Positions 4,720 to 51,687 of a DNA stretch of 64,000 bases are shown here, piece after piece. The stretch is from Rhizophagus irregularis (Eukaryota > Glomeromycota > Glomeromycetes > Glomerales > Glomeraceae). The notes under the pieces are model-generated. The model worked only from the letters and a program-made list of their open reading frames with translations, had not been told where the DNA came from and did not search any database. The position numbers and the translations under genes are program-made. Location of the stretch: positions 434,001 to 498,000 of the forward strand of contig NC_089445.1 in the NCBI RefSeq assembly GCF_026210795.1. Reading direction: 5' to 3'. How positions within the stretch are numbered: position 1 is the stretch's first letter; every line of letters starts with the position of its first letter.

Positions 4720-5423
4720 ATGGTGGACACAACGATAAATTATAACCCTAATACCCAAGAAACAAAATTGTTTAATGATAAAAATTATGATAAAAATTAT
4801 GAAATATTATCAGTACGTAAAGCTGCTGAAATTTTTTCTACCGTTTCAAAGGGTAATATTGATAAAGATTTGAAGAAATCTTGTAATGATGATAAAGAAA
4901 AATCTGGATTGTATGATTTTTTTTATCCTGCGTTTTCTTTCTTTTTTCTTTTTTTTCTTTTTATTTTCCCCTTATTTAACTTATATATTTATCCAATAGT
5001 GTGGGTTACTTGAAAGATGTTGGTTGGAATCTATTGGGTCCAAATAAGGTTGAACCTTCTTATAAAACTTCAATATCGCCTCCTCGTGATATCAAAATTG
5101 TTCAATCTATAAAAGATCCAATAGTAAAAAAACCTCCAAGAAAGAAAAGTTTAACTAGAGCAAAAGCTATTGAAAGAGAAGAACATCTCATTTCTCCAAT
5201 TAACATATATATTGAACATCGAGATCATCTTGAACAATATAAAAGGGCTCGTGTAAATTTGGATATCTTGAAAGAAGAAATTTATGTTCCAAAAAATCAA
5301 AATCATCAAGTCATGAAACCATTACCGAATCCATGTGGATTATTAGATATCAAATTTTTTCTAAACATTGGTTATGGTGGTGATGTTATTGGATTAGGTA
5401 ATAATATGTGGGGAATAGTATAG
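4720..5423 (+). CDS. Hypothetical protein, two exons
   Basis: Not recognised. Exon 1 is 4720-4910 starting MVDTTINYNPNTQE; an 89-nt intron with a long T-rich tract (4911-4999, GTATGA...CAATAG) leads to exon 2 (5000-5423). Joining them keeps one frame of 204 residues with stop at 5421. The first half is polar and lysine-rich ('DKNYDKNYEILSVRKAAEIF'); the second has a basic stretch 'KKPPRKKSLTRAKA' that could be a nuclear signal, and ends with a glycine-rich hydrophobic tail. The intron could instead be read through for about 30 hydrophobic residues to a stop, which looks like chance. Function is unknown; a lineage-specific protein is the safest label. Confidence 0.55.
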
Positions 5424-40089: not shown

Positions 40090-41734
40090 TCACTCATTAG
40101 CAGTTATATTAGGATATAAATCAAATCTTCTTTGTGATGGAACTGGTATTGATTGTCTTATTACTTTAATTTGTTCCACATCTAAAAATAAGTTGGAAAT
40201 GTAAAAAACACACATACAAATGTACAGATTTTCATAAACTTCTTACCAATATTAGCATAAATAATCGCTTCTTCATGCTCTGTGGTTGCAAGAATTTGTC
40301 CACTAAATATAACATTTATGATAATAAATAAGTTTCGTAATAGACATCAAAGTACAAAACAATGTGCTAAACTCACCTTGGATCAACTATAGTAGAGTGT
40401 CCCCATGCATGATAAGCCGCTGACATATCCCGGGCAGGCGAACATGTAGCCACAAAAAACTATGTAATAAATAATTTTAACTTCACATGTAAAACTAAAT
40501 GCTAAACATTTCAAAATAAAATATTTACTTGATTATCGACTGCTCTAGCTCTTTGTAATACTGTTTTATAAATTTTTTAAAAAAATAATAAATCATTATG
40601 ACACTAAATTAATTGAATTATTCTAAAAACTTACACTCCCAATGTAATGGACCAGTTGTAAGATTAAACGCTCCTGGATATATCATTGCAATACATCCTT
40701 TCAAAAAAAAAAAATTATGAAATCAACACAAATTTATAGTATCACCCACTAGTAAGAATAAATTATACCTTTTCTAGAAGCAATCATAGCCATCTCCGGA
40801 AATCTCATATCATAACAAATACCAATTCCAATCTTTCCATAATCTAAATATTCGATATTAGACAATTGAAATATGATTATGAAATTAAAAAATAAATTAT
40901 TGACAAACCAGTTTCAAATTGTGTCAAAGAATTCCCGGGAGACAATGTTTCACTTTCTTGAAATTTTATCTTCCCTGGAATATTGATATCAAATAAATGA
41001 ACTTTGCGATGCTTTGCAATTAAATTTCCTAACAAAAGGGTCAAATGTTATTCAGAATCAATGATCAATTATGTGATTGACATCAAAATCAATTACCTTC
41101 GGTATCGTACACTAGACAAGTATTAAATAACTTTCCCGACGAATCCTCTCGTTCTGGTATAGATCCTTCAAAATCAAATAAATTTCAACATTAAACTGAA
41201 ATAGAATCATGTATCGTGAATTGATCTGTAAAGGTTATTCACCCCCAACAACAAATGCTTTAGCTTCCTAACGAGAATCAAAATTGAATGGATAATAACA
41301 AATTAATTTAATATATATTATATATAATATATAATTAGTTGATTTAATTTACCTTCGCTGCTTCAGAAAGGGTTTTTGCACTTTCTCCTTGTGAAATGTT
41401 TTCTGCATACTCTGCAAAATATTGTGTTCCATAAGGCGAGTTAAAACATTCCTAATAATAAGCTTTTTAAAAATAATAAAAAAAAAATCAAAACAAATCG
41501 ATCAGCTCGATATAAGCTAGATACCGGCAAAACAATAACTTTAGCACCATTTCTAGATGCCTCCAAAATTTTGCTTTTCGTTTTTAATAAATTGACGGTT
41601 TTATCAGCTGTAACACTTAATTGAATACATGCAAGCTTAAAAGAATTAGACATTGTGGATAAAAAATTCTTATGTTGAAAAGAATGAATCGGAGGTTTTA
41701 TTAAAACTGTGGATAATAGTTGACGTGAAAACAT
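40090..41734 (-). CDS. NIT2: Omega-amidase / nitrilase NIT2-like
   Basis: About nine exons from ATG 41734-41732 to TGA at 40092-40090. Carbon-nitrogen hydrolase fold with the Glu-Lys-Cys triad visible: Glu in '[11 protein letters not shown]', Lys in 'KHRKVHLFD', Cys in '[12 protein letters not shown]'. It continues '[15 protein letters not shown]', '[20 protein letters not shown]' and '[13 protein letters not shown]'. These features match human NIT2 and yeast Nit3, which hydrolyse alpha-ketoglutaramate and alpha-ketosuccinamate. The first 27 residues ([27 protein letters not shown]) look like a mitochondrial presequence, while Met28 gives the usual cytosolic start, so dual localisation is likely. 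Confidence 0.9.
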
Positions 41735-42400
41735 GAGTAGCTATAACAGATAATATAATAATTGATCAAAAACTAGAATAAATTTAAATTATCATGTGAT
41801 TATTTCTATATCAAGATCTTCATACCATTAAAATTTCTCACATACTAAATTTTATAGCGGATATTGAGTGTTTCCAAGCATCTATAATAATCGAATATAC
41901 TCGAGTATTCGTTTAAGCTTGCATTTTAGTTGATATTATTATGACATTAATTCTTACAAAATCGATTTTGACTATACTAAACGAATATTCCAAGCTTATC
42001 AAATAATTATTTTATGACATGATCCCAATCACTATCTTGTAATACGTAAGTTTACCCGTATGGGCTTTTGTTATTCTAATGAAGAATGGATATCTGACAA
42101 GATAAGTTTAGAATGGCGTAACATATATGTAACCACTACTGAGCGCCCAAAGATTTCCCATAATTGACCAATCGTTATCGAGAAAGCTAGTTCAGTATAA
42201 ATTTTATATAAGGTTGCGACCAAGTTAATAAAGTTAAGTTGTAGCCTTAAAACATCAAATTTATAACGTAGCAAACGACATTATTTAGAGCATTATTCTA
42301 TCAAAATAACAAATTTGCGTCTAAACAGCCTATTTTGCCCGAAGCTTTGACCAAAACTTACGTCCTCATCTCTAATTTTTCTTCCTCCAGCCATTGAAAA
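41735..42400. promoter_or_regulatory. Divergent promoter, NIT2 / antizyme
   Basis: 666 bp. Contains TATAAATTTTATATAA at 42196-42211, about 190 bp before the antizyme ATG; no ATG lies between roughly 42230 and 42401, so 42401 is the first start codon if transcription begins near that box. A pyrimidine-rich stretch CTAATTTTTCTTCCTCCAG just before the ATG resembles a splice acceptor, so an untranslated first exon is possible. Confidence 0.4.
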
Positions 42401-43589
42401 ATGTCGAATATTGGTATTCAGCTAAAAAACCTGGCTTTAAGAAAAAGCCAGCCCGTATTGCCAAAGGAACTTTTGGCTATCTGTTTTTATCACGATGGTG
42501 CTACTAAATATTATTATTCTACCTGTAAGTAAAATTAATATAAAAATATAGTTCATTTATTTAAACACATTCTTATTGATCTTTATACTCTTAATACAGT
42601 GGGCAAGAAGACTGGGTGGCGTTCCTGTAAGTATTTCAAAAAATTCCTTTTTCTTATCGCTCCCCTTTGTATTCTAACCAGTAACTTATAGACGATAATA
42701 CGATGAAAATGCTTTCACGACCTCTAAATCCCTCAATACAGGACACGACTCCCGATTTTTTACTAAACCCCTCAAACCCCTCAAGAAATTTAAGAAATTT
42801 AGAAGGTATTTTCCGCCATCCCATAAAAATCGACCGCGAATTACGCGAATTAATAATAATTCCAGAAAAAGATACCACTCCGACTTGGAGTGGTATAATT
42901 AAAAATAACACTTTATTTTTGAGAGTCTCTTCTTTGGAATATGACTCTCTAAAGGAGAGGTACGCTATTAATAAATCATTATGTGTAAATTTTTTTATTT
43001 AAGCAACACAATAAACATATTTCAAGATATGTTGGATCATAAGTGTCCCGGTTCATTAAAACCGCTGAAAGTAATCATATGATTACCATAGCTATGTTCT
43101 TGTTCAATGTTAAATATTTTTGAAACATAAATAGCATTATGAGCAAGAATTTGACTGTGGAAATGTTTGATTTTACTGATCGTGTGTTGACGAAAGCGGT
43201 TAAGGGATTATGAACCACATATTTTGAGTTCTAACACTTTTTTATTTAAAAAAATTTCATTTTGTTCTACTTTGTTTGTGCTGCACCTTTTTACGCTATT
43301 GTAACAAATTAGCATTGTTGCTGTTATCGAGCTGGCCGAAGAATTACTAAAGTGTGATACTTTAGTAATATGCCTTGATAGGAATGACAAAAATTCCAGC
43401 CTTTGTAAGTTCCTTTAAAATTATTTTTTTTTTGAAAAAAAAAAAAAATTCTAAAATCTTGATTTATTGACTCCTATTTCATTTTTAGCTACATTAATTC
43501 GAAGCTTTTTTTATTTTGGCTTCGAGCTCGTGCCCCCTGGCACGTATAATCATTCCAACGAGTTCATTCTTGTTGGAATGGAGCTCTAA
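42401..43589 (+). CDS. OAZ: Ornithine decarboxylase antizyme (+1 programmed frameshift)
   Basis: Antizyme binds ornithine decarboxylase, sends it to the proteasome without ubiquitin, and blocks polyamine uptake; its synthesis needs a polyamine-stimulated +1 ribosomal frameshift. Exons: 42401-42524, 42600-42626, 42742-42959, 43313-43404, 43489-43589. The first frame starts MSNIGIQLKN and ends '...KKTGWRS' at TGG-CGT-TCC-T|GA, a UCC-UGA site. Skipping one base puts translation into the frame 'DTTPDF...TPTWSGIIKNNTLFLRVSS', then 'SIVAVIELAEELLKCDTLVICLDRN', 'STLIRSFFYFGFELVPPG' and stop at 43587. These match mammalian antizyme ('NWRTVLSGGSLYIEIPG', '[22 protein letters not shown]', 'LLRTFSFLGFEIVRPGH'). 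About 50 residues precede and 137 follow the shift. Intron 2 splits the UGA. Intron 3 is unusually long (353 nt). Confidence 0.88.
42620..42744 (+). promoter_or_regulatory. +1 ribosomal frameshift site UCC-UGA, split by an intron
   Basis: After removal of intron 2 (42627-42741; GTAAGT donor, AATACAG acceptor) the message reads TGG CGT TCC TGA CAC. UCC-UGA is the shift site of most animal and many fungal antizymes, and the preceding Trp codon two positions upstream also matches. A second acceptor at 42691 would bypass the site. Confidence 0.8.
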
Positions 43590-44181: not shown

Positions 44182-44464
44182 TTAACGAAGACGTCTTGCT
44201 TCACGTTCAGATTCCAAAAGACACAAAATATCGTTTTCACGGACTGGTCCTTTAACATTACGAATAATTGAACGAGTTGAATCATCCATAAATTCAACTC
44301 TAACTTGAGTTACGCCACCCCGAGAACCAGTACGGCCTAGTACTTTGATGACTTTTGCAAGTTTAACTGGTTGTTTTGCGTCCTATAAACCAAAAATATT
44401 AGTATTTGACAATTAAAACAAAGAAACCTGAAACTTTGATCAGTAAATATTCTTAAAATACCAT
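44182..44464 (-). CDS. RPS28: 40S ribosomal protein eS28
   Basis: Small-subunit protein near the mRNA exit channel. Exon 2 (44382-44182) codes '[66 protein letters not shown]', nearly identical to human and yeast S28 from the fourth residue on. The only upstream start that splices to it in frame is the ATG at 44464-44462, directly followed by GTATTTTAAG, so the coding part of exon 1 is just the initiator codon. The intron is 79 nt and ends GGTTTATAG. Full length is 67 residues, as expected. Confidence 0.95.
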
Positions 44465-49956: not shown

Positions 49957-51687
49957 TTACAACTATATATGGCCTGGTAATTCCCTATTTTCGTATAAAT
50001 ACGTAATTCATAATCCTGGTAATTAATTACCAGATTTTTTAAAAAATACGTAAATACGTAATTATTTATGTCATACGTAATTAGCGTAAATATTATTGGC
50101 TGATCATGGGTCATGTGCTTTTTTTATATCAGCATTTTATTGTTTTTGCATTTTTATATATATAAATGCCGGAACCATCTGTTTCGGCATTTTTTTTGCA
50201 TTTCTACAAGTAAAAATGCCAGAACTGATGGTTTCGGCGTTGTGGCACGCCGCCTATAGGATATTAAAATAAAATATCGTATGTTGCCACCGACGTGTTG
50301 AGTTCGTAAAGAAATCTATGCTTAGTTTAAAATAAAAATTAGTTACAAAAATTACAAAAACATTATTTTCTTACCAAATATTTTTTAAAATCTCAAACTT
50401 AATAATATAATATTAATTAATTCTCAAGCGTACAATGAGTATATTCATATTTGAATAAATTTTAATAATTAATATTTTAATATTATTTTATTTGAGCCAA
50501 AATTTGACTGCAGAATTTCCTATCGAAATCCACTTGTATTTATACATTTTTAAAAAAAATATTTCTAATATTTCTAATATTTACTATCTTTTCTAATAAA
50601 ATTTGAAGATCTATTATTATATGACTATCTCGTTACACTAAACTAAACTATAAATATAATTTTATTGGCTAATTATTTACCCATCGGTTAATTATTTATC
50701 CTTTGGCTAATTATTTATCCTTATTCTATTTTATTGTATTTTTCGGTTATTACAGCGTTTTTTTTTGCATTTTTACTAGTAAAAACGCTGGAACTATCAG
50801 TTTTGGCATTTTTTTTGCATTTTACTAGTAAAAACACTGGAATTATCAGTTTTGGCATTTTTTTCATTTCTACAAGTGAAAATGCCGAAACTATCAGTTT
50901 CAGCGTTTTTTTTTCATTTCTACAAGTGAAAACGCTGGAACTATCAGTTTCGGCTTTTTTTTCATTTCTACAAGAAAAAACGCTGGAACTATCAGTTTTG
51001 GTGATTTTCTTGCATTTTTTACAAGTAAAATGCTAGAACTATCAGTTTCAGCGATTTTCTTTTTATTATTACATGTAAAATGCCGAAACTATCAGTTTCG
51101 GCGATTTCTTTTCATTTTTACTAGTAAAAACGCCAGAACTATCAGTTTTGGCATTTTTTTTTGCATTTTTACTAGTAAAATGCCAGAACTATCAGTTTCG
51201 GCATTTTTTCATTTCTACAAGTGAAAACGCCAGAACTATCAGTTTCAGCATTTTTTTTCATTTCTACAAGAAAAAACGCCAGAACTATCAGTTTCGGCAA
51301 TTTTCTTGCATTTTTACAAGTAAAAATGCCAGAACTATCAGTTTCAGCGATTTTCTTTTTATTATTACATGTAAAATGCTGAAACTATCAGTTTCGGCGA
51401 TTTTCTTTTTATTATTACGTGTTGTAAAACTGCTGAGCTATCAGTTTCGGCATGTTTTTCTCACATTTTCACATATCATGTGATTAATTACCAATAGTAT
51501 TTACAGTAATTACGTTAAACGTAATTATTTATGGGTACGTTTGACTAATTACGAAAACATTAATAATTACGATTAATGTAATTATTTACGTTATACATAA
51601 TTAATTACGAATTACGTAATTATTTACGTATTTCGAATTACGAATTACATTTTTGGCTGATGATTTACCAGGTCATGTATAATTATA
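49957..51687. mobile_element. Fold-back-like non-autonomous element with palindromic core array
   Basis: The ends are inverted: 49957-49980 (ACAACTATATATGGCCTGGT...) matches the reverse complement of 51665-51689 (ATAATTATACATGACCTGGT...) at about three quarters of positions. Both subterminal zones are full of TACGTAAT motifs. The centre is the minisatellite at 50751-51465. Open frames across it are by-products of the repeat. Ends are estimated; target duplication not certain. Confidence 0.55.
50751..51465. repeat. Palindromic minisatellite, about 14 units of ~49 bp
   Basis: Each unit alternates two inverted repeats: GCCGAAACT ... AGTTTCGGC around ATC, and TTTTTACTAGTAAAAA (or an ACAAGT variant). 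The array therefore reads nearly the same on both strands and could form a ladder of hairpins. Two related half-units stand apart at 50160-50245. Confidence 0.85.

Follow-up and report, generated by a model that had tools for sequence, protein, structure and literature searches.

Can a ribosomal frameshift site be encoded by a gene in which that site does not exist as such? Work on programmed frameshift sites usually deals with continuous RNA. The question is raised by an antizyme gene (antizyme puts a brake on the synthesis of polyamines) that lies at positions 42401-43589 (+) of a 64,000-nt stretch of the genome of Rhizophagus irregularis, of the order Glomerales (contig NC_089445.1; this whole stretch is referred to below as the window). 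This is a five-exon ornithine decarboxylase (ODC) antizyme gene, and the recoding site is absent from the gene itself: splicing must unite the slip codon with the stop, so that an exon-exon junction comes to lie inside the A-site codon. As argued below, a polyamine-feedback antizyme gene with a splice-assembled +1 frameshift site is the best explanation of this locus, and we consider it highly probable; the coupling of splicing and recoding is directly testable here in one small gene.

The spliced gene and its shift site

The first open reading frame (ORF1) comprises, upon splicing, 50 codons followed by TGA, and its end reads GGG-UGG-CGU-UCC-U/GA (here and below, the slash marks the junction), with the T of the stop at 42626 and its GA at 42742-42743. 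From there, the +1 frame encodes the body of the antizyme, a further 136 residues, with a stop that ends at 43589. An ORF1 that ends in a shift codon and UGA, with the antizyme body in the +1 frame, is the arrangement characteristic of frameshift antizyme genes, and the 5' stimulator known as module A is found adjoining the shift site as GGG UGG CGU. The 186-aa frameshift product matches the Pfam family ODC_AZ (PF02100) with 54.5 bits (E 1.3e-14, cut-off 24.2), and the predicted product shows the antizyme fold in a VIA-align comparison. An earlier note, written from the letters of this DNA, had proposed that exons 3-5 encode antizyme and that the first frame ends TGG-CGT-TCC-TGA with the body in +1; the homology bears out the former, and the coordinates and the spliced reading agree with the latter. 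The position of the shift site on a 27-nt microexon and a possible second acceptor at TAG 42691 are added here.

The note had also held that the stop is assembled by splicing, from T at 42626 and GA at 42742. The deposited R. irregularis protein P0003 is identical, letter for letter, to the +1 reading of the 42626/42742 splice in the window, and the join GG[VI]P/D, which is the +1 reading of ...CCT/GAC, is found in 15 of 30 relatives from three orders of Glomeromycotina. Because of this identity and this recurrence, the arrangement is more than a chance one, and the observation of an intron-split frameshift stop in an antizyme gene is confirmed. Of the two outcomes that had been named beforehand as fatal to it, neither was found: joins of the 42626/42742 type are present in deposited models and in two transcript-like proteins, and so is the antizyme homology. 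The gene is organized as follows (all on the + strand; all four introns are GT..AG):

42401-42524, exon 1: start of ORF1, 41 codons and the first base of the next; context of the first ATG, aaaaATGt
42495-42497, ATG in the +1 frame (acgATGg): start of the deposited model P0003, absent from P0008 and P0009
42525-42599, intron 1: 75 nt, phase 1, GTAAGT..CAG
42600-42626, exon 2: 27-nt microexon with the last ORF1 codons, module A (G UGG CGU), UCC at 42623-42625 and the U of the stop at 42626
42627-42741, intron 2 in the form that gives the frameshift mRNA: 115 nt, phase 1, GTAAGT..CAG, splitting the stop as U/GA
42742-42959, exon 3 in its distal form: the last two letters of the stop, GA, followed by DTTPDFLL..LKE in the +1 frame
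42960-43312, intron 3: 353 nt, phase 2 of the +1 frame, GTACGC..TAG
43313-43404, exon 4: antizyme domain, with a perfect inverted repeat of 11-nt arms at 43343-43369
43405-43488, intron 4: 84 nt, GTAAGT..TAG
43489-43589, exon 5: antizyme end and stop, with an inverted repeat at 43551-43580

Both introns around exon 2 are in phase 1, and the microexon holds the whole local recoding signal. Skipping of exon 2, in combination with the acceptor 42741, would keep the frame and remake UGA after ACC, with loss of the slippery UCC and a product of 41 aa. The C-terminal peptide of ORF1, YYYSTL.KK.GW.S, is common to the Rhizophagus and Gigaspora models and spans about codons -14 to -1; judging by position, one might guess that it has a stimulatory role. 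A search with ORF1 as the sole query gave no matches. In the Diversispora model P0028, a different upstream sequence precedes the nonapeptide WVRRPGGVP, which is what a 27-nt piece encodes in the +1 frame; this arrangement suggests that the microexon may be old.

The expression of this gene can be envisaged as follows. Splicing would join the 27-nt microexon to exons 1 and 3, yielding the recoding site GGG-UGG-CGU-UCC-UGA-C. With UCC occupied by tRNA-Ser and UGA, a slowly read stop, in the A site, the ribosome would slip by +1 onto CCU and resume reading at GAC, and this slip would be more frequent at high polyamine concentrations, if the gene behaves as described for the family in the available parts of PMC5009743. 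The frameshifted product would be the antizyme, which, by analogy with the family, would bind ornithine decarboxylase and send it to degradation. In the absence of the slip, translation would end after 50 codons; two further exon junctions lie downstream of the stop in the unshifted mRNA, which could be a target of nonsense-mediated decay. The use of each junction is inferred, and so, from the family, is the actual frameshifting. The same genome contains two ODC-type loci (PF02784) on other contigs, C9:2666416-2667130 and C13:2703385-2704340, which are possible targets of the antizyme, although one of them might be an antizyme inhibitor. No second copy of the antizyme gene was found in a protein search of the genome (146.7 Mb, 32 contigs), all four matches being on C17, at this locus.

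The join in deposited proteins of relatives

The relatives comprise 30 distinct identifiers obtained in two protein database searches and sorted by a script on the type of join:

GG[VI]P/D join, 15 of 30: P0003, P0006, P0008, P0029 (R. irregularis); P0011 (R. clarus); P0013 (Glomus cerebriforme); P0018, P0019 (Dentiscutata); P0021 (Racocetra); P0025 (Acaulospora); P0026 (Ambispora); P0027, P0028 (Diversispora); P0009, P0017
intron tail read before IQ/D, 8 of 30: P0001, P0002, P0004, P0005, P0007, P0016, P0022, P0030
neither join, 7 of 30: P0010, P0012, P0015, P0024, starting at M just after D; P0023, starting at D; P0014, which bypasses it; P0020 (F. mosseae), in which GGVP runs into VSITK, the translation of a GTAAGT donor at the same place

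Protein sequences reveal the join but not the intron itself; outside Rhizophagus, P0020 and the intron-tail models suggest that the intron may likewise lie inside the stop codon. P0009 and P0017 are single open frames that begin inside exon 1 and run through exon 5 to its end, on records of 1087 and 980 nt. Since intron-bearing DNA could not give such frames, these two records are probably transcripts, and both carry the frameshift join. When genome_contigs and viral_contigs were scanned for the DNA of relatives with alignment A2 (18 of the 30), 109 and 69 pattern matches were obtained, none of which encodes a relative; hence, conservation of the introns and of the hairpins described below is judged through proteins only.

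The public antizyme models of these fungi conflict with one another, being started in the +1 frame or carried through by a frame-keeping acceptor. This conflict stems from the frameshift and splice architecture (start at 42495 in the +1 frame, or the frame-keeping acceptor), and it makes an annotation trap for polyamine control in plant symbionts, the arbuscular mycorrhizal fungi. The model P0014 is labelled acyl-CoA N-acyltransferase.

A possible second acceptor and other conceivable routes to antizyme

The earlier note had called the gene invisible as one open frame. This holds for the acceptor 42741 only: a second possible acceptor of intron 2, TAG 42691, which had been overlooked, joins 42626 to 42692 and gives one uninterrupted frame of 203 codons with no frameshift (194 aa if the microexon is left out). 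The relevant features (+ strand) are:

42674-42678, CTAAC: branch-point-like, for the acceptor 42691; presumed branch A 14 nt before the G of AG, its role judged from the motif
42692-42741, segment retained with the acceptor 42691: 50 nt, in-frame YDNTMKMLSRPLNPSIQ, stop removed; read in P0001, P0002, P0005 and P0007
42724-42728, CTAAA: branch-point-like, for the acceptor 42741; presumed branch A 14 nt before the G of AG, its role likewise judged from the motif

The 42691-type join occurs in four Rhizophagus models, and the kept segments, as counted from the residues, all preserve the frame: 59 nt in P0001 and 50 nt in P0007 (both R. irregularis), 59 nt in P0002 (R. diaphanus) and 47 nt in P0005 (R. 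clarus). If the acceptor 42691 were also used in cells, the gene would have two routes, one of which would yield a continuous 203-aa antizyme that escapes the polyamine sensor, and the degree to which polyamines control antizyme output would be set by the choice of acceptor. Apart from the open join and the four models, this possibility is favored by the CTAAC motif before 42691, which is taken as the better match of the two to the fungal branch-point consensus. However, gene finders favor open frames, so that such models are to be expected even where the corresponding RNA is scarce or not made at all; a protein search would miss alleles whose frame is broken; and P0007 differs at its 3' end. 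Furthermore, an open bypass arose by chance in 6.7% of 20,000 trials with a shuffled intron, and a shuffled 50-nt tail was open in 18%; both transcript-like records carry the 42741-type join; and the YDN form of the join is absent from those of the 30 relatives that lie outside Rhizophagus. In 276 kb of the genome examined for branch points, CTAAC followed GTAAGT donors in only nine cases, without a clear distance peak; these statistics hence do not decide between the acceptors. On balance, we regard the use of both acceptors as unlikely. Somewhat more doubtful still is a two-layer switch in which the microexon and the two acceptors would together yield polyamine-gated antizyme (with the microexon and acceptor 42741), ungated antizyme (acceptor 42691; 203 aa, or 194 aa without the microexon) or none (skipping with acceptor 42741, ACC-UGA, 41 aa); if it existed, the fungus would choose at the RNA level whether its antizyme listens to polyamines.

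A more radical view would be that the acceptor 42691 alone is used, so that Rhizophagus makes antizyme without frameshifting and UCC-UGA is a relic or a prediction artefact. The same 203-codon frame and the same four gene models can be adduced for it, but half of the 30 relatives show the other join, including P0003 (5 member sequences) and P0029 from R. irregularis; the frameshift join has been modelled although it gives the gene finder a shorter protein; and GG[VI]P/D is kept across three orders, which would not be expected of a relic. This view appears hardly credible. Only slightly better placed, and in our estimation very improbable, is initiation by leaky scanning at the +1-frame ATG 42495, as assumed by the 155-aa model P0003, which begins there; this would dispense with the frameshift. 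The context of this ATG (acgATGg, A being at position -3 and G at +4) speaks for such initiation, but the ATG is not conserved, its place being taken by TIAPLN in P0008, TIGPLN in P0009 and IVLPN in P0011 of R. clarus, and ORF1 has been kept as a protein in the Rhizophagus and Gigaspora models, which this route does not require. Leaky scanning is disfavored because the ATG is not kept in relatives.

RNA folding, known antizymes and neighbouring sequence

The structure results rest on one allele. Three hairpins are predicted in the coding part of exon 3 (+ strand):

42872-42896, first hairpin
42899-42922, second hairpin
42927-42959, third hairpin; the array 42872-42959 as a whole has z -6.43 against 200 dinucleotide shuffles

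When the + strand of the window was scanned in 695 windows of 92 nt with 40 dinucleotide shuffles each, four had z <= -6, including the one at 42873 in exon 3 (z -7.0); the 92-nt window at 43517, mostly in exon 5, had z -5.1. The second open reading frame (ORF2) folds with -117.9 kcal/mol, as compared to a mean of -82.8 kcal/mol under synonymous codon shuffling (z -6.0, none of 200 shuffles as stable). In a wider codon-shuffle test (26 chunks, 40 shuffles each), ORF2 scored -6.25 and the next chunk, 5001-5423, scored -2.52, with none of its 40 shuffles as stable either; the 26 chunks were ORF2, ORF1 of the antizyme gene and 24 chunks from 17 of the 20 listed ORFs (not verified as genes), with three ORFs omitted and the longest cut to four chunks. 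Hairpins with arms of 10-12 nt occur in exons 3, 4 and 5 (42872-43580), and ORF2 is more strongly folded than its protein sequence and codon usage account for.

A stimulatory 3' structure near the shift site is known from several, though not all, groups with frameshift antizyme genes. Over the first 90 nt past the site, folding in this gene is weaker than in codon shuffles (z +1.68; pseudoknots are outside the model). Since the strong hairpins start 130 nt downstream of the shift site, those of exon 3 do not qualify as a stimulator of the classical, adjacent kind; they may have a long-range effect, influence the splicing of intron 3, or affect stability. The hairpin array is not a dispersed repeat, as it had a single match in a DNA search of the genome, and three weak Rfam matches, each far under the gathering score, were taken as chance.

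The UCC-UGA +1 site, found according to the accessible parts of PMC5009743 in the large majority of antizyme genes, the +1 direction and the ODC_AZ domain are shared by R. irregularis with the known antizyme mRNAs described there, whereas the intron-split stop and the local recoding signal on a 27-nt microexon set it apart from them. The closest comparison is with Coprinopsis cinerea, for which the available text of PMC4505036 describes module A as GGG at -4, UGG, and CGU at -2, with a 38-fold loss in HEK293T upon change to the complement; these codons, GGG-UGG-CGU, are identical in R. irregularis. The part of the conserved ORF1 peptide at about codons -14 to -4 can be likened, by position only, to the nascent-peptide stimulator of C. 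cinerea at -15 to -5. The two fungi differ in the shift codon, which is UCC in R. irregularis and UUU in C. cinerea, and in the downstream region: a conserved RNA structure lies 19 nt past the site in C. cinerea, whereas the first 90 nt are little folded in R. irregularis (PMC4505036 for C. cinerea throughout). Drosophila Oda, as far as the consulted portion of PMC4528330 goes, is likewise a spliced antizyme gene expressed by +1 frameshifting; here, unlike in Oda, an intron at the exon border lies inside the stop codon.

Antizyme frameshifting is already known, as are antizymes in Glomeromycota, one of six fungal phyla from which they are recorded (PMC4505036, in the part at hand, citing its reference 36). 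An open-literature search found no paper on both antizyme and Rhizophagus. The reference 36 in question is probably the 2007 survey of about 300 antizymes. For the splice architecture, no report of an intron splitting an antizyme shift site was found in the open literature searched, including the accessible parts of PMC5009743, PMC4505036, PMC2375905, PMC1526716 and PMC4528330; the 2007 survey might note it.

In the surrounding sequence, a coding stretch for ribosomal protein S28e (44182-44382, - strand; PF01200, 111 bits) adjoins the antizyme gene and is convergent with it, and a carbon-nitrogen hydrolase-like stretch lies upstream (41441-41740, - strand; PF00795, 21.1 bits, just below the cut-off of 23.2). 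Further downstream, a tandem hairpin-rich array at 50139-51459, with units of ~50 bp (14.1 copies at 50760-51459) and also a 296-bp period, contains the 92-nt window (at 50877) that ranks as most structured in the + strand scan.
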